This document shows, in pieces, positions 8,234 to 60,797 of a stretch of 64,000 nucleotides of DNA (positions are counted from its first letter, which is position 1; the number at the start of each line of letters is the position of its first letter). Under the pieces are notes generated by a model. It worked only from the letters and a program-made list of their open reading frames with translations, was not told where the DNA came from and searched no databases. Source of the stretch: Capnocytophaga sputigena. Its GTDB lineage: Bacteria > Bacteroidota > Bacteroidia > Flavobacteriales > Flavobacteriaceae. The position numbers and the translations under genes were made by a program. Location: positions 126,501 through 190,500 of the forward strand of contig NZ_UAVP01000009.1 in assembly GCF_900446695.1 (NCBI RefSeq), read 5' to 3'.

Positions 8234-9352
8234 TTAAACTTCTTTTTTAAAAGTTGCTCGGCGTGCAAATATAATGGGGTCAAAATTTTTCCAAAGTTGT
8301 TGGATAGCGATGTTTTCTTCGAGTTCGGGGGTGATAATACAGTGAGTCACCTTGTTTTTAGAGAATACATCGTAGTAATAATCAAACAAGAGTGCGGGAA
8401 TACCTTTGCTTTGGTATTCGGGGGCAACCCCAATGAGGTAGAACTCTACAGTATCGTGGTGTTTTTTGGCTTGCAATAAGTGCCACCAACCCCAAGGGAA
8501 CAATTTGCCTTTGGCTTTCTGTAAGGCTTTGGAAAAAGAAGGCATTACGATAGCAAAACATATCAGTTTGCCGTCCTTATCTTCAATAAAGCGGATATAC
8601 TCAGGATTGATAAACGGGATGTATTTCTGTTTGAAATAATCGCGCTGACGGTTGCTTATAGGTACGTAAGAAGCTAACTTAGAGTAGGTTTCATTGTAGA
8701 GGTCAAACATCGCGTCGACGTGTTTGAGCACTTCTTTGGTAGTGGGGGTATCAATAAGTTTTACGCCATAACGTTTTTTAATGGCTTCGGCTGTTTTTTT
8801 GAAGAATTCGGGCTTCGCATTTTTTAATTGGAAAGACATATCAATAAAGCCTTTTTCTTTAGTAAAACCTAATTGCTCTAAATGTTGTTTGTAGTACGGA
8901 TAGTGGTACCACGTCATCATATTGGAGATATGGTCGTAGCCCTCAGTAAGTAAGCCCACCTTGTCCATACTCGAAAAGCCCATAGGACCTTCGATATATT
9001 CTAACTGGTATTCGCGAGCTTTCTCGGCTACTTTGTTGAGGAGTGTTTTGGTAACCTCGATATCGTCAATCATATCCAGCCAGCCGAAACGCACTTTTTT
9101 TGTACCTTGTTTGAGGTCGTGTTGGTTTACGATAGCAGCCACACGTCCTACCATTTTACCTTTTTCGTTGTAAGCGCCGTAGAAGAAGGCTTCGGCATTT
9201 TCAAACACAGGGTTTTTGGTTTTATCAAAAGATGCCACTTCATCGTTGATGAGAGGCGGTACCCAATAAGGGTGGTTAGGGTATAGTGATAGAGGGAACT
9301 TTACAAATTCGGTAAGTTCTTTTTTAGAGGAAAGTTCTTTAATCGATAGCAT
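8234..9352 (-). CDS. GNAT-like N-acetyltransferase family protein
   Basis: A 372-residue cytoplasmic protein of a family widespread in Bacteroidota, sometimes mislabelled as GTP cyclohydrolase. The C-terminal third shows a GNAT-like acetyl-CoA motif (FYLIGVAPEYQSKGIPALLF). The N-terminus has conserved LYPNHPYWVPPL and EGPMGFSSMD. Substrate unknown. Its start overlaps the end of the upstream outer-membrane gene by 14 nt, implying translational coupling. The GH20 gene follows 20 nt downstream. Family recognition is good; the acetyl-transfer role is inferred from the fold motif. Confidence 0.7.
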   Translation of the reverse strand: MLSIKELSSKKELTEFVKFPLSLYPNHPYWVPPLINDEVASFDKTKNPVFENAEAFFYGAYNEKGKMVGRVAAIVNQHDLKQGTKKVRFGWLDMIDDIEVTKTLLNKVAEKAREYQLEYIEGPMGFSSMDKVGLLTEGYDHISNMMTWYHYPYYKQHLEQLGFTKEKGFIDMSFQLKNAKPEFFKKTAEAIKKRYGVKLIDTPTTKEVLKHVDAMFDLYNETYSKLASYVPISNRQRDYFKQKYIPFINPEYIRFIEDKDGKLICFAIVMPSFSKALQKAKGKLFPWGWWHLLQAKKHHDTVEFYLIGVAPEYQSKGIPALLFDYYYDVFSKNKVTHCIITPELEENIAIQQLWKNFDPIIFARRATFKKEV

Positions 9353-10535: not shown

Positions 10536-12002
10536 TTATTTTTTCTTTTTATTCTCGAAATTTACGGCGCAAGAGTCGATTTCGGATACACGAAGGGTGT
10601 TTACCATTCCTTTGCCTTGCATTGGCATTGATACGAGACTTATCATTATATCGCCCATATCCACATAGCCTTTTTCGTTGGCGATATGGTTGATGTCCTC
10701 AATTAATTCATCGGTAGAAACAAAGCGATCGTAGTAGAAGGTGGTTACCCCCCACAAGAGGTTCAACTGGGTGAGGATGCGCTTGTTAGAGGTGAAAATG
10801 AGAATGTGTGAATTAGGGCGGTATGACGAAATACGGAAGGCTGCATACCCACTGTTTGTAAGGGAGGTAATTACCTTGGCATTGGTGTCGTTAGCCATTT
10901 TCGCTGCGTGGAAACAGATCGTATTGGTTACATAACGCAACGAACGTATAAACGGTGTGATGAGAGGCACTTGGATAAGGTTAGAGTCCTCTACACTTTT
11001 GATGATACGGGTCATCTGCTGGATTACTTGTACAGGATATTTACCTACTGAAGTTTCACCAGAGAGCATCACCGCATCGGCACCGTCCATTACTGAGTTT
11101 CCTACGTCGTTCACCTCGGCGCGGGTAGGGGTAAGGCTTGAAATCATACTTTCCATCATTTGGGTAGCGATGATTACAGGGATGTGGTGAGATTTAGCTT
11201 TGCGCACTAATTCTTTTTGGATAAGAGGCACTTCTTCAGCTGGGATTTCTACCCCAAGGTCACCACGGGCAACCATAATACCATTACAAGCAGCCATAAT
11301 CTTATCGATATTTACCAAAGCTTCAGGTTTTTCAATCTTGGCAATGATAGGAATTTCGTAACCTGCATTTTCTTTGATAAGTTCTTTTAGGTCTTGGATA
11401 TCTTCGGGGTGGCGCACGAAAGAAAGAGCGATCCAATCAACTTCTTGAGAAATAGCGAAAAGAGCATCGCGTACATCTTTTTCGGTAAGAGCGGGGAGTG
11501 ATACTTTTGTATTAGGTAAGTTTACTCCTTTTTTAGATTTGAGAGGACCCCCTTGTACAACTACAGCTACAACCTCGTCTTCACGGTTAGTAGATTCCAC
11601 TTCAAAGATGAGTTTCCCGTCGTCTAACAAAATGCGCTCGCCTGGGTTTACATCTTGAGGGAACGCTTTGTAGTTCATATAGGCGCGTTCTTTAGTACCT
11701 ACAAAAGGTTCGCCTGTAACGAAAGTTATGCGGTCGCCAGGGTATACCACAGCATCGTCTTCCATTACCCCTACGCGCAATTTAGGACCTTGGAGGTCGG
11801 CGAGAATAGCAGTATGGAAACCGTGCTCTTCGTTGATTTGGCGAATCATCTTGATGCGGTTGCGCACATCGTCGTAATCGGCGTGTGAGAAGTTGATACG
11901 GAAGACGTTCACACCCGCAGCCATCATATCTTTTATCACCTCAGGACTTTCGGTAGCGGGACCTAAGGTAGCTACAATTTTCGTTTTTTTTGTATTTAAC
12001 AT
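10536..12002 (-). CDS. pyk: Pyruvate kinase
   Basis: A 488-residue enzyme close to the usual bacterial size. Diagnostic motifs are RINFSHAD (catalytic Arg), KIEKPEAL (catalytic Lys), MVARGDLGVEI, and the long ATQMMESMISSLTPTRAEV block that binds divalent metal and phosphoenolpyruvate. The C-terminal allosteric domain is present, with a short lysine-rich tail. It converts phosphoenolpyruvate and ADP to pyruvate and ATP in the cytoplasm. Its start overlaps the IPExxxVDY gene by 7 nt, so the two are translated from one transcript that ends at the hairpin at 10477. Confidence 0.97.
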   Translation of the reverse strand: MLNTKKTKIVATLGPATESPEVIKDMMAAGVNVFRINFSHADYDDVRNRIKMIRQINEEHGFHTAILADLQGPKLRVGVMEDDAVVYPGDRITFVTGEPFVGTKERAYMNYKAFPQDVNPGERILLDDGKLIFEVESTNREDEVVAVVVQGGPLKSKKGVNLPNTKVSLPALTEKDVRDALFAISQEVDWIALSFVRHPEDIQDLKELIKENAGYEIPIIAKIEKPEALVNIDKIMAACNGIMVARGDLGVEIPAEEVPLIQKELVRKAKSHHIPVIIATQMMESMISSLTPTRAEVNDVGNSVMDGADAVMLSGETSVGKYPVQVIQQMTRIIKSVEDSNLIQVPLITPFIRSLRYVTNTICFHAAKMANDTNAKVITSLTNSGYAAFRISSYRPNSHILIFTSNKRILTQLNLLWGVTTFYYDRFVSTDELIEDINHIANEKGYVDMGDIMISLVSMPMQGKGMVNTLRVSEIDSCAVNFENKKKK

Positions 12003-48822: not shown

Positions 48823-49737
48823 CTAATTCTCAAAGACAAACTTTTTTCCGTCTTCAGCTAAAAAAACATTCTTAAAAACCTCTTGGGCTTCTTGTTTAAA
48901 CATATTTACATCGGGGTAGCGAGAAGAGTAGTGCCCTAAAATAAGCGCTTCGGACTGAGCATTTTTGGCGACAAGCCCTGCTTGGTAGGCAGTAGCGTGC
49001 ATTGTTTTAGCAGCGAGTTCTTCATTGATTTTCAAGAAAGTAGATTCGTGATAAATCACTCTTGTTCCTCGTATTTCGGTTGCCAAATCTTCTAAATAAA
49101 CGGTGTCGCTGCAATAGGCATAACTTTGCGGACGATGAGGCTCGAAAGTGAGTTCAGTATTAGCAATAGTTTTACCATTTTCTAAAATGATGTCTTTTCC
49201 GTTTTTGATATTCTGATAATCACATACTTCAATCTCGGGGTATTGGGCGATAGCATCCATATTCAGGCGGCGTTCACCTTCTTTTTCTTGAAATAGGAAA
49301 CCATTGGTATAGACGCGGTGTTGCAACGGAATAGTGCGCACTAGCACTTTGTCATCTTCGTATAAGAGTTCAGAATTTTTAGAAGATAGTTCGTGAAAAT
49401 ACAAAGGGAAAGGCGTGTAAGCCCCACCGAGTTTGAGCACGAGTAGCACCGCTTCTTTGATGCCTTTAGGTCCGTAGATATGCATTTCGGCTTCACGACC
49501 AAGGAGTTGGAAAGTAGAAATAAGTCCAAAAAGTCCATAGAAATGGTCGCCGTGGAGGTGAGATATGAAGATGTGCTTGATACGGGAGAATTTAGCATTG
49601 GCATTGCGGAGAGCGATTTGGGTAGCCTCTCCACAATCGATGAGGAACAGATGACCGCGCATTTCGAGCAGTTGAGCCGAGGGGCGGGCATTAGAGCGAG
49701 GGGTCGCACTGTGGCAACCTAAGATAGTTACTTCCAT
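48823..49737 (-). CDS. rnz: Ribonuclease Z
   Basis: A 304-residue metallo-beta-lactamase-fold nuclease with the zinc motif HLHGDH (His60, His62, Asp64, His65), an N-terminal GCHSATP loop, and C-terminal ligand histidines in LGHYSSRY. It trims tRNA 3' ends where CCA is absent, which matches the CCA-less tRNA-Asn in this window. Its start overlaps the small gene upstream by 10 nt, a conserved arrangement in Flavobacteriia. Confidence 0.94.
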   Translation of the reverse strand: MEVTILGCHSATPRSNARPSAQLLEMRGHLFLIDCGEATQIALRNANAKFSRIKHIFISHLHGDHFYGLFGLISTFQLLGREAEMHIYGPKGIKEAVLLVLKLGGAYTPFPLYFHELSSKNSELLYEDDKVLVRTIPLQHRVYTNGFLFQEKEGERRLNMDAIAQYPEIEVCDYQNIKNGKDIILENGKTIANTELTFEPHRPQSYAYCSDTVYLEDLATEIRGTRVIYHESTFLKINEELAAKTMHATAYQAGLVAKNAQSEALILGHYSSRYPDVNMFKQEAQEVFKNVFLAEDGKKFVFEN

Positions 49738-50039
49738 AAGTCGCGTTCTATTTCGTCAAGTTCAATAAGGTCGTAGGCTTCTTGTAGGGTAGGGGCGATG
49801 TGCAGGCTGAGTTCAAAATCTTCGAGAGCCAAAGCGCGTTGCACCACCACCACCGATTTTGCTTGTTGCTGGCTGTACTGTTTTGCAAACGAAGCAAGCG
49901 GTTTGAGGTCTTTTTTGAGCCAGTGTTCCTCTTCGGGTAGTGTAATGATAATATGCTGAGGTTTTTGGGTAGCGCTGAATGTTGCCAGCCAAGAAGGGAG
50001 TTGTGATTTATTGAGGGTAATTTCGGTAGTTTCTTTCAT
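49728..50039 (-). CDS. Conserved small protein upstream of rnz
   Basis: A 103-residue soluble protein (begins MKETTEITLNKSQLPSW, ends ELDEIERDLWK). The alternating strand-helix pattern looks like a STAS-type or ribonuclease-Z-linked domain, but I cannot assign it. The 10-nt overlap with rnz implies coupled translation and a related role. Confidence 0.7.
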   Translation of the reverse strand: MKETTEITLNKSQLPSWLATFSATQKPQHIIITLPEEEHWLKKDLKPLASFAKQYSQQQAKSVVVVQRALALEDFELSLHIAPTLQEAYDLIELDEIERDLWK

Positions 50040-50183
50040 TAGTACAAATTTCCCGCAAAATTATAAATAATATTTTAAAGGACAAAGGAATCTATTAAAA
50101 AAGAGGCAAGTGCGCAGATTATTAGAATGCAAGAGTGGAAGTTAAAAAAGAATAGGAATAGAATTGAAATATGAAGTCTCAAA

Positions 50184-50249
50184 ATTACACTACATACCTT
50201 GTCAAAGCCCTTAACGCTTGTCGTGTTAGGGATTTTAACAAAGTGTAAT
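50184..50249. repeat. 66-bp imperfect inverted repeat
   Basis: ATTACACT (50184-50191) pairs exactly with AGTGTAAT (50242-50249), and the inner parts TTGTCAAAGCCCTTAAC and GTTAGGGATTTTAACAA pair with a few mismatches. It lies after the last gene of the small-protein array and probably ends that transcript or marks a small repeat element. The rest of 50040-50267 holds no gene. Confidence 0.6.
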
Positions 50250-50267
50250 GATTTAAACTGTAAAACT

Positions 50268-50453
50268 TTATTGTTTTAGAGTCATTTCAGTGCTGGCATT
50301 GTCTATTTTAACTCTGTCTTTTCCCAATTGGTAGCCTATTACAAAGAGCATAATTATTGTGAAAACAACAGAAAATACTAATTTTTTTTCTTTGTTTTTA
50401 TTGCGTAAAGAATAGATTAAACATACAGCAGAAAATATTGCAAGTATCCACAT
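50268..50453 (-). CDS. Micro membrane protein 1
   Basis: A 61-residue protein with two membrane segments (MWILAIFSAVCLIYSL; VFSVVFTIIMLFVIGY) separated by NKNKEKK. It is the last gene of an eight-gene minus-strand array. Function unknown. The tail is polar. Confidence 0.6.
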   Translation of the reverse strand: MWILAIFSAVCLIYSLRNKNKEKKLVFSVVFTIIMLFVIGYQLGKDRVKIDNASTEMTLKQ

Positions 50454-50479
50454 AAAATAATAATTTAAGAGGTTGTTTT

Positions 50480-50599
50480 TTATTTACCTAAAAAGCCATT
50501 TACAAAATCTTGTGGGTACTCAATAACGCTAATAAGTAAATAAGCAACAAAGAGCCCCATAGTTATATGAAAACTTCGCTTTAATACTGATTTTTCCAT
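50480..50599 (-). CDS. Micro membrane protein 2
   Basis: A 39-residue protein with one membrane segment (ITMGLFVAYLLISVIEY) and charged N-terminus MEKSVLKR. The leader before its ATG contains AACAAATTTTAAAACT, similar to other array members. Function unknown. Confidence 0.55.
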   Translation of the reverse strand: MEKSVLKRSFHITMGLFVAYLLISVIEYPQDFVNGFLGK

Positions 50600-50646
50600 A
50601 GAGTATAGTTTTAAAATTTGTTACAGAAATGGTTTATAATTATATG

Positions 50647-50796
50647 TTAGTGTGTTAGGTAGTAGATAAATTCTCCTGTAGCTTTTCCAAATTTATAGAT
50701 AAAGAAAGCTGATAAACAAACGGCGGCAAGGCTTAACCATTTGTTTTTTAATATAAAGAGATGGGCATTGTAAAGTTTTTGTGTAAACTTATCCAT
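50647..50796 (-). CDS. Micro membrane protein 3
   Basis: A 49-residue protein with one membrane segment (WLSLAAVCLSAFFIYKFG). Its start lies 20 nt after the stop of the preceding array member, so they can be cotranscribed. Function unknown. Confidence 0.55.
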   Translation of the reverse strand: MDKFTQKLYNAHLFILKNKWLSLAAVCLSAFFIYKFGKATGEFIYYLTH

Positions 50797-50815
50797 AATC
50801 CAAGTGATTTATAAA

Positions 50816-50932
50816 TTACTTAGTGAGGTTTCCTATAAATTGCCCCAAAGCATAGAAAGCATTATAGAAAAAAAACCACATTAGGACAGCTATAAATACT
50901 GTTTTAGTTATGTTTATATTTTTTGGTTTCAT
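50816..50932 (-). CDS. Micro membrane protein 4
   Basis: A 38-residue protein with one membrane segment (TVFIAVLMWFFFYNAFY) and a basic N-terminus. It carries the repeated promoter-leader block upstream (50933-50990). Function unknown. Confidence 0.55.
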   Translation of the reverse strand: MKPKNINITKTVFIAVLMWFFFYNAFYALGQFIGNLTK

Positions 50933-50958
50933 ATTATAAAGGTATTAATAATTCGCAA

Positions 50959-50990
50959 CAAAGATAGAAATTCTTTTTTTACGAAGCAAG
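50959..50990 (-). promoter_or_regulatory. Array promoter, copy 1
   Basis: On the minus strand TATCTTTG (50959-50966) with CTTG 20 bp upstream (50987-50990). The surrounding block is closely similar to copy 2 at 51996-52027. Confidence 0.6.
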
Positions 50991-51103
50991 AAAAACTCGA
51001 TATTTTTTTCAGAATGAGATAGCTATACAACACAAATGAGATGAGAAAGCTACTTATCTTTTGTTTTTAGAGTCATTGTAAAAATTAAAAAATACAACAA
51101 AAT

Positions 51104-51295
51104 TTAGCTTTGGGTATTATTTTCTTTCCTTTTAGTATCGAAATACAATTTTGAGAAAAGAATAACGAATAAGACTCCTGATAAAATGGGAGCAATTTTT
51201 CCTTGATTGTAAAGGTATTCTATAACAGCATAAATGGTATTGCCCAAAGCGAGCAACAGCATTGTGATAATGAGAATTGGTTTTTGGGGATTCAT
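51104..51295 (-). CDS. Micro membrane protein 5, paralogue of 37076 gene
   Basis: A 63-residue protein (MNPQKPILIITMLLLALG start) with two membrane segments and a basic tail. It aligns with the protein at 37076-37270. An upstream ATG at 51322 is less likely, as it would break that match. Function unknown. Confidence 0.6.
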   Translation of the reverse strand: MNPQKPILIITMLLLALGNTIYAVIEYLYNQGKIAPILSGVLFVILFSKLYFDTKRKENNTQS

Positions 51296-51325
51296 AGGGG
51301 TAAAAAAGTTTGTGATGTACAAATG

Positions 51326-51526
51326 TTATTCTTGTTGTCTTTCTTTTTGTAAAACAAAACCTATAGAAATAGCTGAAAGCAAACATACCAATGCTGTAAG
51401 GCTATTGCTTAATACATCTCTACCATTTAAATTTGCAAAACATAGAAAGGCTATTTCTACAAAAAATCCGATGGTTGCTAACACAAATAAGACGCTTTTT
51501 ACATCCTTTCTTAAAAAAGGTTTCAT
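51326..51526 (-). CDS. Micro membrane protein 6
   Basis: A 66-residue protein with two membrane segments and a basic, glutamine-rich tail (LQKERQQE). Its leader TTAATACCTT before the start resembles that of member 4. Function unknown. Confidence 0.6.
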   Translation of the reverse strand: MKPFLRKDVKSVLFVLATIGFFVEIAFLCFANLNGRDVLSNSLTALVCLLSAISIGFVLQKERQQE

Positions 51527-51568
51527 AATAAATAAGGTATTAAGATTAAAAATTGAGATTGAAGTGAG

Positions 51569-51748
51569 TTAACGCTTTTCTCTATTGCCGACAAAATAGC
51601 CAATAACAAAAATATTACCAACTAACACTGTGTATGACAATGCTATTAACCATTTATTGAGTTGGTATTCAGCAAAAACATTCATATAAATAGGAATAAA
51701 TGATATAATGGCTATAGTGAGCAATATATAATGTATGGATTTTTTCAT
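51569..51748 (-). CDS. Micro membrane protein 7
   Basis: A 59-residue protein with two membrane segments (YILLTIAIISFIPIYM; LIALSYTVLVGNIFVIGYFVG) and tail NREKR. Leader TTTTGTAGCGAAATTTTAAA matches the one before member 8. Function unknown. Confidence 0.6.
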   Translation of the reverse strand: MKKSIHYILLTIAIISFIPIYMNVFAEYQLNKWLIALSYTVLVGNIFVIGYFVGNREKR

Positions 51749-51804
51749 ATTATGAAGGTTTTAAAATTTCGCTACAAAATTTAGTTTGGGTACTATTACT
51801 AAAA

Positions 51805-51969
51805 CTATTTAATTTTCTTAACAAGAAGATAAACAAAGTAGTAGAAACATATAGTGCTTAAAATTAGCAAAATGTTACCAATAGCACTATACTCTCTATA
51901 ATCTATTTTGATGATTATTCCTGCTAAAGCAGTAAGGGTACTTAGTATAAGAGGAAAGAATAACTTCAT
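51805..51969 (-). CDS. Micro membrane protein 8
   Basis: A 54-residue protein with two membrane segments and tail KKIK. First gene of the array, with promoter copy 2 upstream. Function unknown. Confidence 0.6.
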   Translation of the reverse strand: MKLFFPLILSTLTALAGIIIKIDYREYSAIGNILLILSTICFYYFVYLLVKKIK

Positions 51970-51995
51970 AACAGATTAGGTTTAAAATTTCGCTA

Positions 51996-52027
51996 CAAAG
52001 TTAGTAATTAGTTTTTTACAAAGCAAG
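51996..52027 (-). promoter_or_regulatory. Array promoter, copy 2
   Basis: On the minus strand TAACTTTG (51996-52003) with CTTG 20 bp upstream (52024-52027). Both this block and copy 1 carry the T-rich string TTTTTTAC then AAGCAAGAAAAA on the plus strand. Confidence 0.6.
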
Positions 52028-52074
52028 AAAAAAAGGATATTTAACATTTTATCCGCGGTAGGACAGACTTCTTT

Positions 52075-52911
52075 TTATTTGTTTTTTACAATATAATCCT
52101 GAAACATTGGATAAAAATTTTCTTCAAAATATTTTCTTTCTTCTACGGTTAAGGATGTTAAAATTTCTTCGTTAATACAATTGTAAATATTGTAATAAAC
52201 AGCCGTTTTTTCTTTCCATCCTGTTTTAAACGAAGGGGTATAAAAAACTTCTATGACACTCTGTTTCTTGATTTTATCCTTTAATGCTGCTAATGAAAAA
52301 AGGTCGACTTGTTGTTCACTTATCAAAAGCTGGTTGTCATTCTCTTTTAGGATTTCACCCATATCGCTTTTGATAGTTTTTTCGTCTGTGAGCAAAGCGT
52401 TTGGCAAAGAATGATTGATGTAATTAATTATTGAAGAATCGCCATATTTATAGGCATTTTTAATGAAAAAATGAGGTTTATATAAGAAAAGTTGGTATAA
52501 ATATACATTATAATCTTCTAAATAATGACCTAATGAATCATCTTTAAAAATATGATTCAAAATATCATATAAAATAGCTTCATCTTTCTGTTCAATGCGA
52601 ACTAACAATAGTTTTATGAAAAAAACTTGAGCATATTCTTCTTTTTCAAAATCTTGTTCTTTTAAAAAATTGAAAAACTCCAAGCGAAAATCCTTTTTTT
52701 GAAAAGTATCTAATTTTAAATCTTCAATATAGGTGCCTTTGTATTTGTATTGTTTTAACTCAATGTTCTTTATGAATGATTCTGAAGTATTTACCCCTTC
52801 AATAAGAGTTGAATTACTTATACTATTCTTTGGGGTATTATCGCCTTTCCCCATTGTACATTTTAAAGCAAGAGATAAAATGATGAAAATAGATATTTTG
52901 TAATAAATCAT
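52075..52911 (-). CDS. Hypothetical lipoprotein
   Basis: A 278-residue predicted lipoprotein: the signal ends SLALKC (Cys18) with TMGKGDN after it, a less typical lipobox. The body is largely helical with many aromatic residues, and ends FYPMFQDYIVKNK. No family recognised. It lies alone upstream of the small-protein array and is strongly AT-rich. Function unknown. Confidence 0.6.
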   Translation of the reverse strand: MIYYKISIFIILSLALKCTMGKGDNTPKNSISNSTLIEGVNTSESFIKNIELKQYKYKGTYIEDLKLDTFQKKDFRLEFFNFLKEQDFEKEEYAQVFFIKLLLVRIEQKDEAILYDILNHIFKDDSLGHYLEDYNVYLYQLFLYKPHFFIKNAYKYGDSSIINYINHSLPNALLTDEKTIKSDMGEILKENDNQLLISEQQVDLFSLAALKDKIKKQSVIEVFYTPSFKTGWKEKTAVYYNIYNCINEEILTSLTVEERKYFEENFYPMFQDYIVKNK

Positions 52912-53172
52912 ACATTCTGTTTTTTATGAAGAAGCTGTTCAATAAAATAAAAGTTCCCGAAAATTAGTAATTTGTGTTTGAGAAAAAAGAATAAAGTATT
53001 TTCCTAACATCCTCACTTACAATTAATTTTATTTTGTAAAAACTTGATAGGTAACGAATTAGCTACGGAACTTAATTCACCTCTTTGCGTTTATTTCTGT
53101 GATTAACTCACGGTGCGAAGGTACAAATATTTTTTCAATTGGCAAAAAAAAACTAATTTTGCGGTCGCTACC

Positions 53173-53215
53173 GCACTCACATCACGGAGGTTTATAGAAA
53201 TCTCCGTGTGAGTGC
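53173..53215. repeat. Compound GC-rich hairpin
   Basis: GCACTCA (53173-53179) pairs with TGAGTGC (53209-53215), a 3-nt bulge follows, then CACGGAG (53183-53189) pairs with CTCCGTG (53202-53208) around a 12-nt loop. A second small hairpin (GCGGT/ACCGC, 53161-53174) sits just left. A plus-strand TAATTTTG box (53154-53161) lies directly before it. Confidence 0.7.
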
Positions 53216-53477
53216 AGAGGCGTCCACAAAATAGCGCGGATTTGCCTATCCAAAAAGTCTTACTACTTGAACAATTCTCTTACATACTTGTTGTATTTTT
53301 CTTTGAGCTTATCAATAAAAGTAATGTCTTTATCTCTCATTTAGCCTTATGAAAAGTGTGATAGTAATTATCCATATCTATTGATAAAAAAACTTGAAAC
53401 AAACTGATTTTCAACAGCTTGCAATTTCAACTGAAATATTTTGTCATTTTTTTCATATCTTATCAATCATTTTTTCT

Positions 53478-53485
53478 TATTTTTG
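53478..53485 (+). promoter_or_regulatory. -7 box for FN3 protein gene
   Basis: TATTTTTG lies 21 bp before the ATG at 53507. No clear -33 element. It argues against the longer reading frame that opens at 53441. Confidence 0.55.
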
Positions 53486-53506
53486 CCAACAAATTGTTAT
53501 ATCACA

Positions 53507-56193: not shown

Positions 56194-59100
56194 ATGAAAA
56201 AGTATCAGAACCTAATACTCATTATGAGTCTGCTTTTTATTATTCATTTAAATGCTCAAGAATATGTATTAAAAATTAATTACTTCAAATTTGATGTAGA
56301 AAGAGAATATATTCTATGTGGAGATAATAACAAAATGGAATTAAAGGTGATTCTTAAGAATGGAGAGGAACATCTTATAAGGGAAAATGGAGGGTATAAT
56401 TTTTCTGAAAAAAATATAGAAAAGAAATATAGTAGTCCTATAGGTTCTATTTATTTTTATTCATTTACTCATCAGGAAGCATGGGCTGATTTCTTTTCTT
56501 GTAATGGTTATTCTACAGGAATAAAACACTCTGAACCTATCAGAAATATTTGTAAAAATGATATTATTAGAAGGGAGAGTTCTAAAGGAACCATAAAAAA
56601 TACTGTTGTTATTAACTACGAAACTTATCCAATAATAAAATTTGATAGTTTTCAAGAAAATACTATTGGTTATGATACTCAGTGTAGTATTAAGTTAGAA
56701 AAAAGTTCTACTCATTTCCCAGAAGATACATATCGGTATGAATATGCTATAATGGAGAACATTCCATCAGAAAGAGATTGGACAGAGAAAAATCTACCTA
56801 ACACTTTTAAAAGCACGGCTTTTCCCAGTATAAAACTAAGTGATTTTTTACCTAAAACTGTCATTGGAAATTATATATGGTTTAGGGCAAAATCTGCTTG
56901 TGGAGGTACTTATCGCTCGAATCCTATAAGATTCAAAATATTAGCTTCTACTCCTGATGTAATTTCGCAAGGAACTATCAGTACAAAATGTCCAGGGGGT
57001 TCTATTGACTACCCTTTACAATTCAACAGGGGATTAAAATCAGGGGAAAAACTTGAAGTTACTATTAAATATCCTGATGGAAGAACAAAGTCTATCCCTA
57101 ATAAGGATGAAAAGGAATTCAAATTAGATGCTAATAATGTGTATATTTTCAAAGGCTTAAGAAAGGGTATACACTCAATTACAATATCTGGAGAGGGAGA
57201 CGTCTATTCTTCTTATGCTTTTAGGGATCACCCTTTTGTACTTAATGTACAAGATCCTGATCAATTGAACTTTATAGATTGGGCTAGAATTGACCCTAGT
57301 TGCTACAAAGGAAATGATGGTTATATCATCATAGGAGCCTCAGGAGGCACAGGAAATAAACAAATAAAAGTAAACAATGATTCTTGGGTTCCTTTTAATG
57401 AAGATGATCACCATAGTTTAAAGAACCTAACTGCTGGAGAATATAAAATTAGAGTTAAAGATGTCAACGAATGCAATGGTAAACTATACTCAGAAGATAG
57501 TGAAGTCCTGACCATTACCCTTTCTAATCCTCCACAACCTCAAGCCGTTTTAGACACACGAAAAACACAACAACCCACCTATCATAGTGCTAAAAATGGT
57601 AAGATTGTAGTAGAGTTAGCGGGAGGAACTCCTTTAAATAGAATTATACTCTGGAAATATAAAACTATCTGGAAAAATGCACAAAATCAAATAATTAAAA
57701 ATGCTTATTCCACATTAGAAAATGGCAGAGATTATGCTGTTTTAGAGAACATTTCTGCAGGTACTTACCATCTATTAGTTACTGATAAACACAACTGTAC
57801 TATCACTAATACAACTATCTCCTTGGGACAACCTGATCCTCTTAAGGCCGAAATCCAGCTCGTTCAACCTATCTCTTGTAACTCTACAAACCAATTTGGC
57901 AACGAAACTGACAGTAATGTAGACAATATCCGCGATGAAGCTCAGGATGGCATTCTTTATGTAAAGGCTACAGGAGGTGTACCTTTTAAAATAGGGTTAC
58001 CCTACAAATATACTTGGAAAAAGAAAGATCACAATGACGTTTGGAGGGTTTATACTGATGTCAATACCTCTACTATCAAAAAGCTTTCTGAAGGAGAGTA
58101 TGCTGTAAATATTGAAGATGCTAATGGTATTGTGATAGGTAGGTATGAGAACAACATGCTTAAAGAAAAACAAGATGTAACCTACTATCTTCGTCAGCCT
58201 GAACGTCTCACATTGACTATTGATAAACAAGATGCCACTTGCAAAGGTAATGATGGCAAGGCAATAGCACGCCCTTCGGGTGGTACTCCTCCTTACTTTT
58301 ATGATTGGTCTAACGGAGCTAAAGGTTCAAACCTACAAACCATAGAGAACCTACAAGCTACTGCCTATTTGGTAATAGTTACCGATGCCAAACGCTGCCA
58401 AGTGCAAGGGAGTATAAATATAGCGCAGCCTAATAAAGCCTCTATCACAGAGACCATCACTCCGCTTATTTGCCACAATGGCAGCAATGCTACCATAGAA
58501 ACTACCATCACAGGAGGAACACCGCCTTACACTTACCATTGGAATACAGGAGCGACTACTCCAAATATTAGTGGACTTACACACGGTACTTATGAGCTTA
58601 CCGTTACCGATGCACAGGGCTGTAACTACCAAAAGAGTTTTAACGTCACAAACCCAGAAGCATTTACCATCAACTTAGGAGGCAACCGAACCCTTTGCAA
58701 GGGGCAAAGACTCTCTTTAAACATTAAAATTGATGACAATGCTGCTCAATACCGCTGGTATCACAATAATACTTTAATAAGCAATACTCCAGAGCTTCTT
58801 ATCACTGAGGGTGGTAGCTATCGCGTAGAAGTAACTACCTCCAAAGGTTGTACCGCTACTGATGAAATCACCGTTACAATGGCTGATATGGATATTGCCT
58901 CTGAATTTTTCCTATCTACACAAGCATACGTTGGAGAAGAAGTAGTATTGGTTAATGTCAGCAAACCCAAAGGTGAGACCACCCAGTGGCTCGTTCCAGA
59001 GGGAGTGGAAATAAAAGCTCAAAATGACGACTATATCACCGTTGTCTTCCCTAAGGTAGGTGAGTATAACCTTGGTATCAGACAGACCCAGAAAGACTGC

Positions 59101-59424
59101 TTTGCCAACTTCTACAAAAAAATCATTGTAGAAGAGGGTGATGGACAAAGTAGAGAACACAATCCTAACCAGAGTTTTGTTCGTGAGTTTGTCATTACTC
59201 CTAATCCTAATGATGGTAACTTCACTGTACGAGTAAAGTTAGAGAAAGAAAGCACTGTAAAATTACGCCTTTACAATATGGCGGGGCAACTAATCAAGCA
59301 GCAGAGTAGCCAGAAATCAAAAGAACATACTATAAACTTCCAAGAGAAATTAGCAGGAGGTACTTATATCATTGTAGTGGAAACCACTTACCAACGAATG
59401 AGCAAAAAGTTAATCATCAACTAA
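56194..59424 (+). CDS. SprB-repeat surface protein with type A T9SS signal
   Basis: A 1076-residue exported protein (signal peptide ending NAQ, residue ~21). From residue ~360 it carries several SprB-type repeats (for example TCKGNDGKAIARPSGGTPP and GGTPPYTYHWNTGATTPNIS, then GTYELTVTDAQGC). An Ig-like domain follows (QYRWYHNNTLI), a PKD-like stretch, and then a C-terminal ~75-residue type A T9SS sorting domain (PNPNDGNFTVRV, GGTYIIVVET, KLIIN end). It should be secreted by the type IX system and act as an adhesin or gliding-type surface protein. The first ~1.6 kb is AT-richer than the rest. Followed by a PKD lipoprotein 11 nt later. Confidence 0.88.
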   Translation: MKKYQNLILIMSLLFIIHLNAQEYVLKINYFKFDVEREYILCGDNNKMELKVILKNGEEHLIRENGGYNFSEKNIEKKYSSPIGSIYFYSFTHQEAWADFFSCNGYSTGIKHSEPIRNICKNDIIRRESSKGTIKNTVVINYETYPIIKFDSFQENTIGYDTQCSIKLEKSSTHFPEDTYRYEYAIMENIPSERDWTEKNLPNTFKSTAFPSIKLSDFLPKTVIGNYIWFRAKSACGGTYRSNPIRFKILASTPDVISQGTISTKCPGGSIDYPLQFNRGLKSGEKLEVTIKYPDGRTKSIPNKDEKEFKLDANNVYIFKGLRKGIHSITISGEGDVYSSYAFRDHPFVLNVQDPDQLNFIDWARIDPSCYKGNDGYIIIGASGGTGNKQIKVNNDSWVPFNEDDHHSLKNLTAGEYKIRVKDVNECNGKLYSEDSEVLTITLSNPPQPQAVLDTRKTQQPTYHSAKNGKIVVELAGGTPLNRIILWKYKTIWKNAQNQIIKNAYSTLENGRDYAVLENISAGTYHLLVTDKHNCTITNTTISLGQPDPLKAEIQLVQPISCNSTNQFGNETDSNVDNIRDEAQDGILYVKATGGVPFKIGLPYKYTWKKKDHNDVWRVYTDVNTSTIKKLSEGEYAVNIEDANGIVIGRYENNMLKEKQDVTYYLRQPERLTLTIDKQDATCKGNDGKAIARPSGGTPPYFYDWSNGAKGSNLQTIENLQATAYLVIVTDAKRCQVQGSINIAQPNKASITETITPLICHNGSNATIETTITGGTPPYTYHWNTGATTPNISGLTHGTYELTVTDAQGCNYQKSFNVTNPEAFTINLGGNRTLCKGQRLSLNIKIDDNAAQYRWYHNNTLISNTPELLITEGGSYRVEVTTSKGCTATDEITVTMADMDIASEFFLSTQAYVGEEVVLVNVSKPKGETTQWLVPEGVEIKAQNDDYITVVFPKVGEYNLGIRQTQKDCFANFYKKIIVEEGDGQSREHNPNQSFVREFVITPNPNDGNFTVRVKLEKESTVKLRLYNMAGQLIKQQSSQKSKEHTINFQEKLAGGTYIIVVETTYQRMSKKLIIN

Positions 59425-59435
59425 GCAAAATTTCT

Positions 59436-60797
59436 ATGATAACATACTTAAAAAGACTTCATCTAATATCCATAGTAATCTTATTATTATGGATAGTTTG
59501 CTTATCGTGTTATAAAGAGAGTGAAATACCACCTTTAACACCTCAATTCTCTTATACTTTTAAGAATAATGATGAGTCTGTACCTGTGTATCTTCAATTT
59601 ACTAACAAAACAGAAGGCGGCGAACATTTTTTATGGGAATTTGAAGGGGGACAACCTGCAACCTCTAAGTTGCGTACTCCTCCTGAAATTTTTTACAGTA
59701 AACACGGTGCTTACACCATAAAGCTCACTGCCACCAACCAGTTAGGAGAACAAACTACCACTGAGCAGCAAATACAAATCAAAGATGCCATTGGTATCAG
59801 TTTTAGCAAGACAGTGATTGATAGCCATTATCCGCCTGTAACAGCTGAATTTTCAAACAATACCACTGGTGAGGGCCTAACCTATCAATGGACTTTTAAT
59901 GGTGGAACCCCCTCTTCTTTTGAGGGAAAGATACCTCCTAAAATTACATTTACAGAACCTGGAATTCATACAGTTACCCTTACGGTATATAATGGTTTTG
60001 AAACCTTGACTAAAACAGATACCATTGAAGTGCTTCCTTATGTAGCACCTTCTTTTAGCTGGGAGGTAGCTCACGAGGATTACGATTACCAAGCATCTGT
60101 AAAAATCACCTTGAGTAATACCACCCAAAGTGCCATTGCTTACCAGTGGATTTTTGAAGGAGGCTCTCCTGAAACTTCAACTGCGACAACCCCTACAGTT
60201 ACCTTTAACAATGCAGGTACTTTTAAAATAAGCCTGACTGCTTCTAATGGCAAAATGAGTAAAAAGCTTGAGAAGACAATCACTATTTACCCTAATACAG
60301 GTATTTATCACCTAAAAGACATCAAATTAGGTATTAACTACAGTCATAACACACAACATATCCCAGCTTTTTACAGCACCTTATTGCGCCGAGGTTTTCT
60401 CTCCTCAGAGGTAACCGCTGCGGTAGCTCCATTCATTGACATTGTCTTCTTTGGGCAAAGCAATACGTTTTCTTATAATAAATTTATCTCCCCTACTGAA
60501 AGTGTTTCCTATGCTTTTAACCCTATTACTGGAGCTAAAAACACAGTGTTTATAAACACCCAAGAGCTGTTCTCTGAAACCGATTTTGACACAATGCAAA
60601 ACGACATACCACTGCAATCATTAAGTATTACCCACTCTCCAATAGGGGCACAGCCCTTTAACAGCTCACTGCCGCGTATTGTCTTATTCAAAACCGCTGA
60701 CAACCGCAAAGGAGCTATTAAGATAAAACAATTCGTAGATGAGGGCACTGAGAAATCCTATATTCTGTGTGATATTAAAGTACAAAAAAAGCAATGA
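59436..60797 (+). CDS. PKD-domain lipoprotein
   Basis: A 453-residue predicted lipoprotein (signal ending IVCLSCYK, with Cys25 the likely modified cysteine). Three PKD domains follow (HFLWEFEGGQPATS, YQWTFNGGTPSS, YQWIFEGGSPETS, each with the WxFxGGxP signature), then an unassigned C-terminal domain (~residues 290-453). Surface-anchored adhesion or binding to the T9SS cargo is plausible. It overlaps the barrel gene by 4 nt and lies 11 nt after the SprB-type gene, so the genes are cotranscribed. Confidence 0.85.
   Translation: MITYLKRLHLISIVILLLWIVCLSCYKESEIPPLTPQFSYTFKNNDESVPVYLQFTNKTEGGEHFLWEFEGGQPATSKLRTPPEIFYSKHGAYTIKLTATNQLGEQTTTEQQIQIKDAIGISFSKTVIDSHYPPVTAEFSNNTTGEGLTYQWTFNGGTPSSFEGKIPPKITFTEPGIHTVTLTVYNGFETLTKTDTIEVLPYVAPSFSWEVAHEDYDYQASVKITLSNTTQSAIAYQWIFEGGSPETSTATTPTVTFNNAGTFKISLTASNGKMSKKLEKTITIYPNTGIYHLKDIKLGINYSHNTQHIPAFYSTLLRRGFLSSEVTAAVAPFIDIVFFGQSNTFSYNKFISPTESVSYAFNPITGAKNTVFINTQELFSETDFDTMQNDIPLQSLSITHSPIGAQPFNSSLPRIVLFKTADNRKGAIKIKQFVDEGTEKSYILCDIKVQKKQ

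Follow-up and report, generated by a model that had tools for sequence, protein, structure and literature searches.

A probable stockpile of orphan bacteriocin immunity genes in an array of eight small membrane-protein frames of Capnocytophaga sputigena

Within a 64,000-nucleotide (nt) stretch of the Capnocytophaga sputigena genome (contig NZ_UAVP01000009.1, positions 126,501 to 190,500; hereafter the window), eight small ATG-initiated frames on the minus strand, m1 to m8, form an array at 50268-51969 that, judging from sequence comparison, is probably a stockpile of orphan genes conferring immunity to secreted class II bacteriocins (those with a double-glycine leader) of related bacteria.

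Eight small membrane frames and their bacteriocin-associated relatives

The frames comprise 54, 59, 66, 63, 38, 49, 39 and 61 codons (m4 being counted from the ATG at 51295 and not from an upstream TTG, where the frame list starts it) and are separated by gaps of 19-56 nt, except for 171 nt between m4 and m5 (Table 1). A preliminary description of the window had listed eight minus-strand frames of 38-66 codons with one or two membrane segments each, and frame listing, shuffling and hydropathy analysis bear this out. Eight non-overlapping same-strand hydrophobic ATG frames of at least 38 amino acids (aa) occupy 1311 of 1762 bases, compared with 0-3 in 1000 dinucleotide shuffles, and when stretches of 1760 bases were slid along both strands the 12 best all overlapped the array. 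Hydropathy assigns two segments to m1-m4 and m8 and one segment to m5-m7, whose N-terminus is basic (+2 to +3); GxxxG occurs within the last 25 residues of m2, m5, m6 and m8 and in none of 28 hydrophobic control frames. All eight have the form of class II immunity proteins, that is, small membrane or hydrophobic proteins (here with one or two hydrophobic segments), and none carries the N-terminal leader ending in GG of a double-glycine precursor. No frame reaches a curated family cut-off or matches an NCBIfam bacteriocin model, and phage and defence families give weak matches at most. This suggests that genes of this kind escape notice, frames of 38-66 codons having no matching family model.

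Table 1 Array frames, regulatory elements and the upstream neighbour, in window coordinates
Feature	Position	Strand	Remarks
Promoter-like site 1, TTG-N20-TAACTTTG	51996..52026	-	before m1; inside 78-nt repeat 51965-52042
Promoter-like site 2, TTG-N20-TATCTTTG	50959..50989	-	before m5; inside 78-nt repeat 50928-51005
Leader repeat copy 1, TTTGTAGCGAAATTTTAAA	51981..51999	-	before m1; G011 passes from here into m2 leader
Leader repeat copy 2, exact TTTGTAGCGAAATTTTAAA	51760..51778	-	before m2
m1	51805..51969	-	54 aa, two hydrophobic segments, basic tail; no relative found; missing at G011 site
m2	51569..51748	-	59 aa, two segments, GxxxG (GYFVG) near end; 90% identical in G011
m3	51326..51526	-	66 aa, two segments; 100% aa identical in G011; G009 relative E 6.3e-10, 36%
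m4	51104..51295	-	63 aa, two segments; G011 copy frame-shifted; 36% over 59 aa to post-C39 gene of G011
m5	50816..50932	-	38 aa, one segment, C-terminal LGQFIGNLTK (GxxxG); G010 array relative 46%, phmmer 4.9e-12
m6	50647..50796	-	49 aa, one segment; tail FGKATGEFIYYLTH in common with class II bacteriocin precursors
m7	50480..50599	-	39 aa, one segment; tail YLLISVIEYPQDFVNGFLGK in common with G018 bacteriocin precursor
m8	50268..50453	-	61 aa, two segments, GxxxG (GYQLG) ending segment 2; G010 array relative 37%, phmmer 8.2e-14
278-aa protein upstream of array	52075..52911	-	probable orphan immunity protein of cell-wall effector

The genus search covered 20 genomes, G000 being the window's own. 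A scan of genome contigs with a profile of m6 returned ten loci, eight of which (seven from Bacteroidota, one from Paenibacillus) encode a double-glycine precursor and then a leaderless m6-like gene with a near-identical tail of the approximate form GKxxGEFxYYxT; the profile was built from precursor and leaderless rows, so that finding both classes is partly by design, which their adjacency is not. These paired loci belong to Olivibacter, a Capnocytophaga metagenome-assembled genome (MAG; this is the G015 locus, where the precursor on contig 183 ends in YEAGKATGEFIYYATH and the leaderless frame after it in FKFGKSVGEFIYWITR), Hymenobacter, Pontibacter, Solirubrum, a Mucilaginibacter MAG, a Bacteroidales MAG and Paenibacillus. 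At seven of these loci the leaderless gene comes directly after the precursor whose tail it nearly matches, one further precursor intervening in Paenibacillus. A second precursor adjoins the first in seven of the eight (not in L166), which is the layout of two-peptide bacteriocins; the two remaining loci, in Rufibacter and a Tannerellaceae MAG, have a leaderless frame but no precursor. Aligned rows separate into two classes, with [FL]GK in 12 of 12 leaderless rows, m6 among them, and EAGK in 8 of 8 precursor rows, and GxxxG is kept in 19 of the 20, the exception being the G010 relative (references for alignments A1-A4 and their profile searches were taken without the first Met of these minus-strand frames). 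Against 4880 short frames of the fetched loci, m6 matched precursors with phmmer expectation values (E) of 4e-7 to 2e-4. A single search with m6, again without its first Met, gave matches in 23 of 299 genomes at E 0.05, those in G010 (1.2e-9) and G118 (2.7e-4) being convincing, and tblastn of m6 against plasmids gave none.

A DNA match of m7 led to contig 114 of G018, where a precursor (10695-10856) with a GG leader and a core ending in LYLMISVIEYPQDFVDGLLGR is followed by another precursor and by a leaderless 43-aa frame ending in LYLLISVIEYPEAFKAGFLGR, with an identical copy at 8265; the operon continues with further small frames, an HlyD-like gene and a C39 exporter. The C-terminal end of m7 is AYLLISVIEYPQDFVNGFLGK, its phmmer match to the G018 precursor has E 1.1e-7 in the same 4880 frames, and an 89-aa protein of G008 adjoining an ATP-binding cassette ATPase-like gene ends in FLVISAIEYPEEFVKGFLGR. 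The frame directly after the C39 exporter of G011 matches m4 at 1.4e-6, and one beside a C39 locus of G004 has a weak likeness to m8 (0.026). The G011 locus (L136 8227-11311, ~17 kb from the array of that genome) encodes a precursor, two similar tandem two-segment proteins, the C39 exporter and the m4 relative. Adjacency to a cognate bacteriocin is seen, then, for relatives of m6 and m7; the m4 relative adjoins an exporter, the m8 link is weak, and for m1, m2, m3 and m5 no adjacency of relatives to a cognate bacteriocin was found. Immunity to a toxin, one of several roles left open in the preliminary description, is supported by these m6 and m7 loci, from which we infer protection itself. Profiles of m5, m7 and m8, each run over 388 genomes sampled from the family at E 0.01, matched in 12, 10 and 34 genomes, respectively, strongly only in those whose rows had built them, the remainder resembling noise. 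At L153 1459-2114 (G146) and L144 1477-1794 (G005) lie four and two small one-segment frames in a row, respectively; these weak profile matches have tails like m7 or m5, with no precursor seen next to them, and are possible further orphan arrays.

Distribution in the genus and weighing of alternatives

When ~5-7 kb upstream of the RNase Z gene was fetched for comparison, array frames had matches in two genomes, G000 and its nearest relative, G011 (RNase Z 99% identical), and in none of the other 18. G011 has m2, m3 and a frame-shifted m4 and lacks m1 and m5-m8, the promoter block being the only other DNA match there. In their place its array encodes two other proteins, one of 228 aa and secreted type and one of 94 aa and membrane type; the former is 26% identical to a G008 gene directly after a double-glycine precursor and has no likeness to the first gene of the G018 cluster. 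At the m1 site of G011, promoter 1 joins the m2 leader directly, the junction lying inside the repeat that precedes m1 and m2 in the window; m1 may have been lost in G011 or gained in G000 at this leader repeat. A second array lies in G010, at 1.25 Mb in another chromosome region. There a single promoter with the same spacing precedes five small frames, which encode 41 aa, 40 aa and relatives of m5, m6 (47%) and m8 in the window's order, and the stop of the m5 relative overlaps the following ATG. C39 matches were present in 7 of the 20 genomes, G011 included, and the exporter search gave none in G000, G005 or G010; neither TIGR01847 nor TIGR03949 matched G000, at E 1 and 0.01. Since G000 has no C39 match, the array genes look like orphan immunity genes kept without a toxin, and we count in favour of a stockpile the turnover between G000 and G011, the five-frame array of G010 (also without a C39 match) and the likeness of the G011 228-aa gene to a post-precursor gene.

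Relatives were found for seven of the eight frames (for m2 only in G011), so the complete lack of conservation that the preliminary description had named as grounds for rejecting the genes does not apply. Between G000 and G011, m3 differs by two third-position changes, both synonymous, and the ratio of nonsynonymous to synonymous substitution rates (dN/dS, NG86) is ~0.24 for m5, 0.38 for m6 and 0.76 for m8 relative to G010, and 0.68 for m2 relative to G011.

The likeness of their tails to bacteriocin precursors would also agree with the one-segment frames being leaderless bacteriocins or leader-less remnants, hence toxins or fossils and not immunity genes. We regard this as unlikely: the two classes stand side by side with class-specific [FL]GK and EAGK, the leaderless form has a basic N-terminus ahead of its segment and persists in G000 and G010 without a C39 match, and dN/dS is below 1 for m5 and m6. 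Transporters are often regulated by small membrane proteins, and the relatives lie in bacteriocin operons adjoining exporters, both of which would suit proteins that aid bacteriocin export or maturation, or that regulate a transporter or a membrane stress response. Such a role seems quite improbable here, as G000 and G010 have no detected C39 exporter to serve, leaderless m6-like genes stand alone in Rufibacter and the Tannerellaceae MAG, and a toxin-like tail is not expected of a helper.

Several results weigh against orphan immunity genes as the content of the array. In G011 part of it shares a contig with a precursor and with the one C39 exporter of that genome, so exporter-free genomes are not the only ones to carry the array. 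Neither DNA comparison over the 20 genomes nor the fetched loci yielded a relative of m1 (genome-wide protein searches did not extend to m1-m4), and they yielded one of m2 in G011 only; the G009 relative of m3 has no visible precursor nearby, and no precursor partner was found for m5 or m8. In codon use, 0.009-0.15 of 115 nested control frames scored at least as high as the array frames over all codons, but on synonymous choice alone 0.035-0.35 did, which gives no separation. Tail copying, finally, was compared in a control set (set B) of 21 loci picked by C39, TIGR01847 or TIGR03949, independently of the motif, 11 of them usable; L137 and L138 (short C39 matches), L181-L183 (the same places as L172, L178 and L174) and L081, L082, L084 and L087 (weak TIGR01847 loci) were excluded, and the precursor pattern missed L177 and miscounted frames of L130 and L133. 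A permutation test gave a tail score of 27.2 for a locus's own precursor and neighbour, compared with 19.7 for permuted ones (standard deviation 1.8, p 0.00085), but this signal is carried by L114 and L067 (2 of the 11), the other nine having no convincing likeness. Set A (seven motif-found loci) gave no signal (p 0.98), because its loci come from a single family and precursors were in some cases counted as neighbours. L177 (G192) is by sight a third case, with a core ending in AYNIGNDIGESMVKNQ beside a leaderless frame ending in SYDFGKELGGYLCSLQN; together with the 2 of 11 it indicates that tail copying is limited to some one-segment neighbours and does not extend to all immunity candidates. 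At the L177 locus (468-1841) a single double-glycine precursor is surrounded by five small leaderless membrane frames, two of which have tails resembling that of the precursor.

Promoter blocks, assembly and surroundings of the array

Called with TTG-N-TAnnTTTG, which we take to be the Bacteroidota-type promoter consensus, both promoter-like sites fit TTG-N20-TAnnTTTG with identical spacing, and the enclosing 78-nt blocks before m1 and m5 are 76% alike, in agreement with the earlier proposal that regulatory DNA was duplicated. Same-spacing promoters within a 78-nt repeat make two transcription units likely, m1-m4 and m5-m8. The TTTGTAGCGAAATTTTAAA leader is exact before m1 and m2 only, with two matches at no more than three mismatches in the window compared with 0.17 expected; the m5 block is 86% alike to the m2 block across 36 nt, TTAATACCTT is common to the m3 and m5 leaders, and the m7 leader has AAATTTTAAAAC. 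The five similar leaders first described can thus be recognised loosely, in m1, m2, m3, m5 and m7, whereas those of m4, m6 and m8 do not match the shared type. A block 77% alike precedes a lipoprotein-like gene on another contig of the same genome, and promoters of this type are not confined to the array; after that gene come three similar tandem genes of ~300 codons (L042 6475-9208, contig 9) with a signal-like start and EQKYILLDS.

Size and hydrophobicity would also fit type I toxin-antitoxin peptides under antisense RNA. We consider this very remote, given that 49700-53500 holds no Rfam match at gathering score (described RNAs only), that Bacteroidota-type promoter matches in similar stretches number one on the opposite strand versus five on the array strand, and that the relatives sit in bacteriocin operons.

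Gene duplication as the source of the eight frames is not supported: only m2-m8 of the 28 pairwise protein comparisons beats all 200 shuffles (uncorrected for 28 tests), and relatives elsewhere differ. Repeated duplication, as originally suggested, is accordingly confirmed for the regulatory blocks (m1 and m5, partly m2) but finds no support for the small genes. The array looks put together from unlike genes behind shared promoters.

Relatives of the 278-aa protein encoded upstream of the array occur in G011 (95%), G007 (90%) and G004 (75%), with pieces in G012; the 90% in G007, despite an RNase Z identity of 65%, is a sign of transfer. In G004 the relative comes after a 456-aa YkuD-domain protein, which is itself preceded by a lipoprotein-like gene and one for a 463-aa CHAP protein. 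This layout is like that of cell-wall effector-immunity pairs, so the window gene is probably an orphan immunity gene against a cell-wall effector. In the same G004 locus (L051 26-5096) one probable immunity gene comes after the CHAP-domain protein and another after the YkuD-domain protein; the latter gene is the relative of 52075-52911, with an SH3 domain added. The predicted structure of the 278-aa protein (mean predicted local distance difference test score 46.5) was not used. No recombinase was found among the 16 of 16 frames of at least 150 aa at 37734-62446. Large surface proteins are encoded divergently from the array at 56194-59421 and 59436-60794; their features are SprB repeats, a Por secretion tail and PKD domains.

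Proposed mode of immunity and comparison with known systems

On the stockpile reading, the genes would form two short operons (m1-m4 and m5-m8), each driven by its own copy of the promoter block, and every product would sit in the inner membrane and protect against one bacteriocin. The C-terminal end of m6 and m7, and by likeness of form of m5, would copy the tail of the cognate bacteriocin and engage its partner peptide or receptor, halting pore assembly; m6 has the GxxxG pairing motif. By the positive-inside rule a basic end stays inside, and with their basic N-terminus m5-m7 would therefore turn the tail to the periplasm, where the incoming peptide arrives. Two-peptide bacteriocins are stated to pair through GxxxG helices (PMC10059821). 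A membrane-bound copy of one peptide's tail could engage the other peptide and prevent the pore from forming. Alternatively, the tail may block a receptor or may reflect plain common ancestry without a tail function. As a possible but distinctly tentative generalization, we suggest immunity by decoy: for one family of two-peptide bacteriocins, seen in Bacteroidota and Paenibacillus, the immunity protein would derive from one of the toxin's own peptides. Anchored in the membrane, it would retain the GKxxG pairing face and the EFIYYxT tail and would form a dead-end pair with the other peptide or occupy the receptor. Non-producers would accumulate such decoys along with further immunity genes, as cassettes that are linked to promoters and come and go at short leader repeats, and the array would serve as a defence against peptide toxins.

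The nearest known arrays are rAID clusters, described as tandem orphan immunity genes in a cell without the cognate toxin (PMC12247911). The array would resemble them in its tandem putative immunity genes without a detected toxin and in the probable orphan cell-wall-effector immunity gene beside it; it differs in having no tyrosine recombinase among the frames of at least 150 aa at 37734-62446 and in that its small genes are connected with secreted peptides rather than with type VI effectors. McbI of Moraxella catarrhalis is very small, is encoded directly after a double-glycine bacteriocin gene near an exporter, and gave protection when cloned (PMC2761928). The m6-like and m7-like relatives are likewise small and encoded after double-glycine precursors, but they share the precursor tail, and no bacteriocin gene adjoins those of the window. 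As in the lactobin A/cerein 7B family (TIGR03949), precursors beside m6-like genes have double-glycine leaders and GxxxG; that of Paenibacillus scores 28.5 bits and passes the 21.5 cut-off, those of Olivibacter (18.2) and G018 (20.0) fall below it, and that of Hymenobacter gives no match, while the window frames differ from the family in having no leader. Bacteroidetocins, too, are double-glycine peptide toxins from Bacteroidota that are served by a C39-type exporter; no immunity protein is known for them, and their producers inhibit themselves (PMC6671954). By eye, the precursors here do not have the four-cysteine pattern reported in that study.

Literature searches, with most subscription papers outside their scope, listed no recognisable account of tail-copying bacteriocin immunity proteins or of such Capnocytophaga arrays. 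To our knowledge, the mode of action of immunity proteins of two-peptide bacteriocins is largely open, and the same tail in a toxin and its small neighbour, at eight loci in several genera, offers a concrete and cheap test of it. The array further suggests that secreted peptide bacteriocins, besides type VI effectors, drive the collecting of orphan immunity genes in Bacteroidota.
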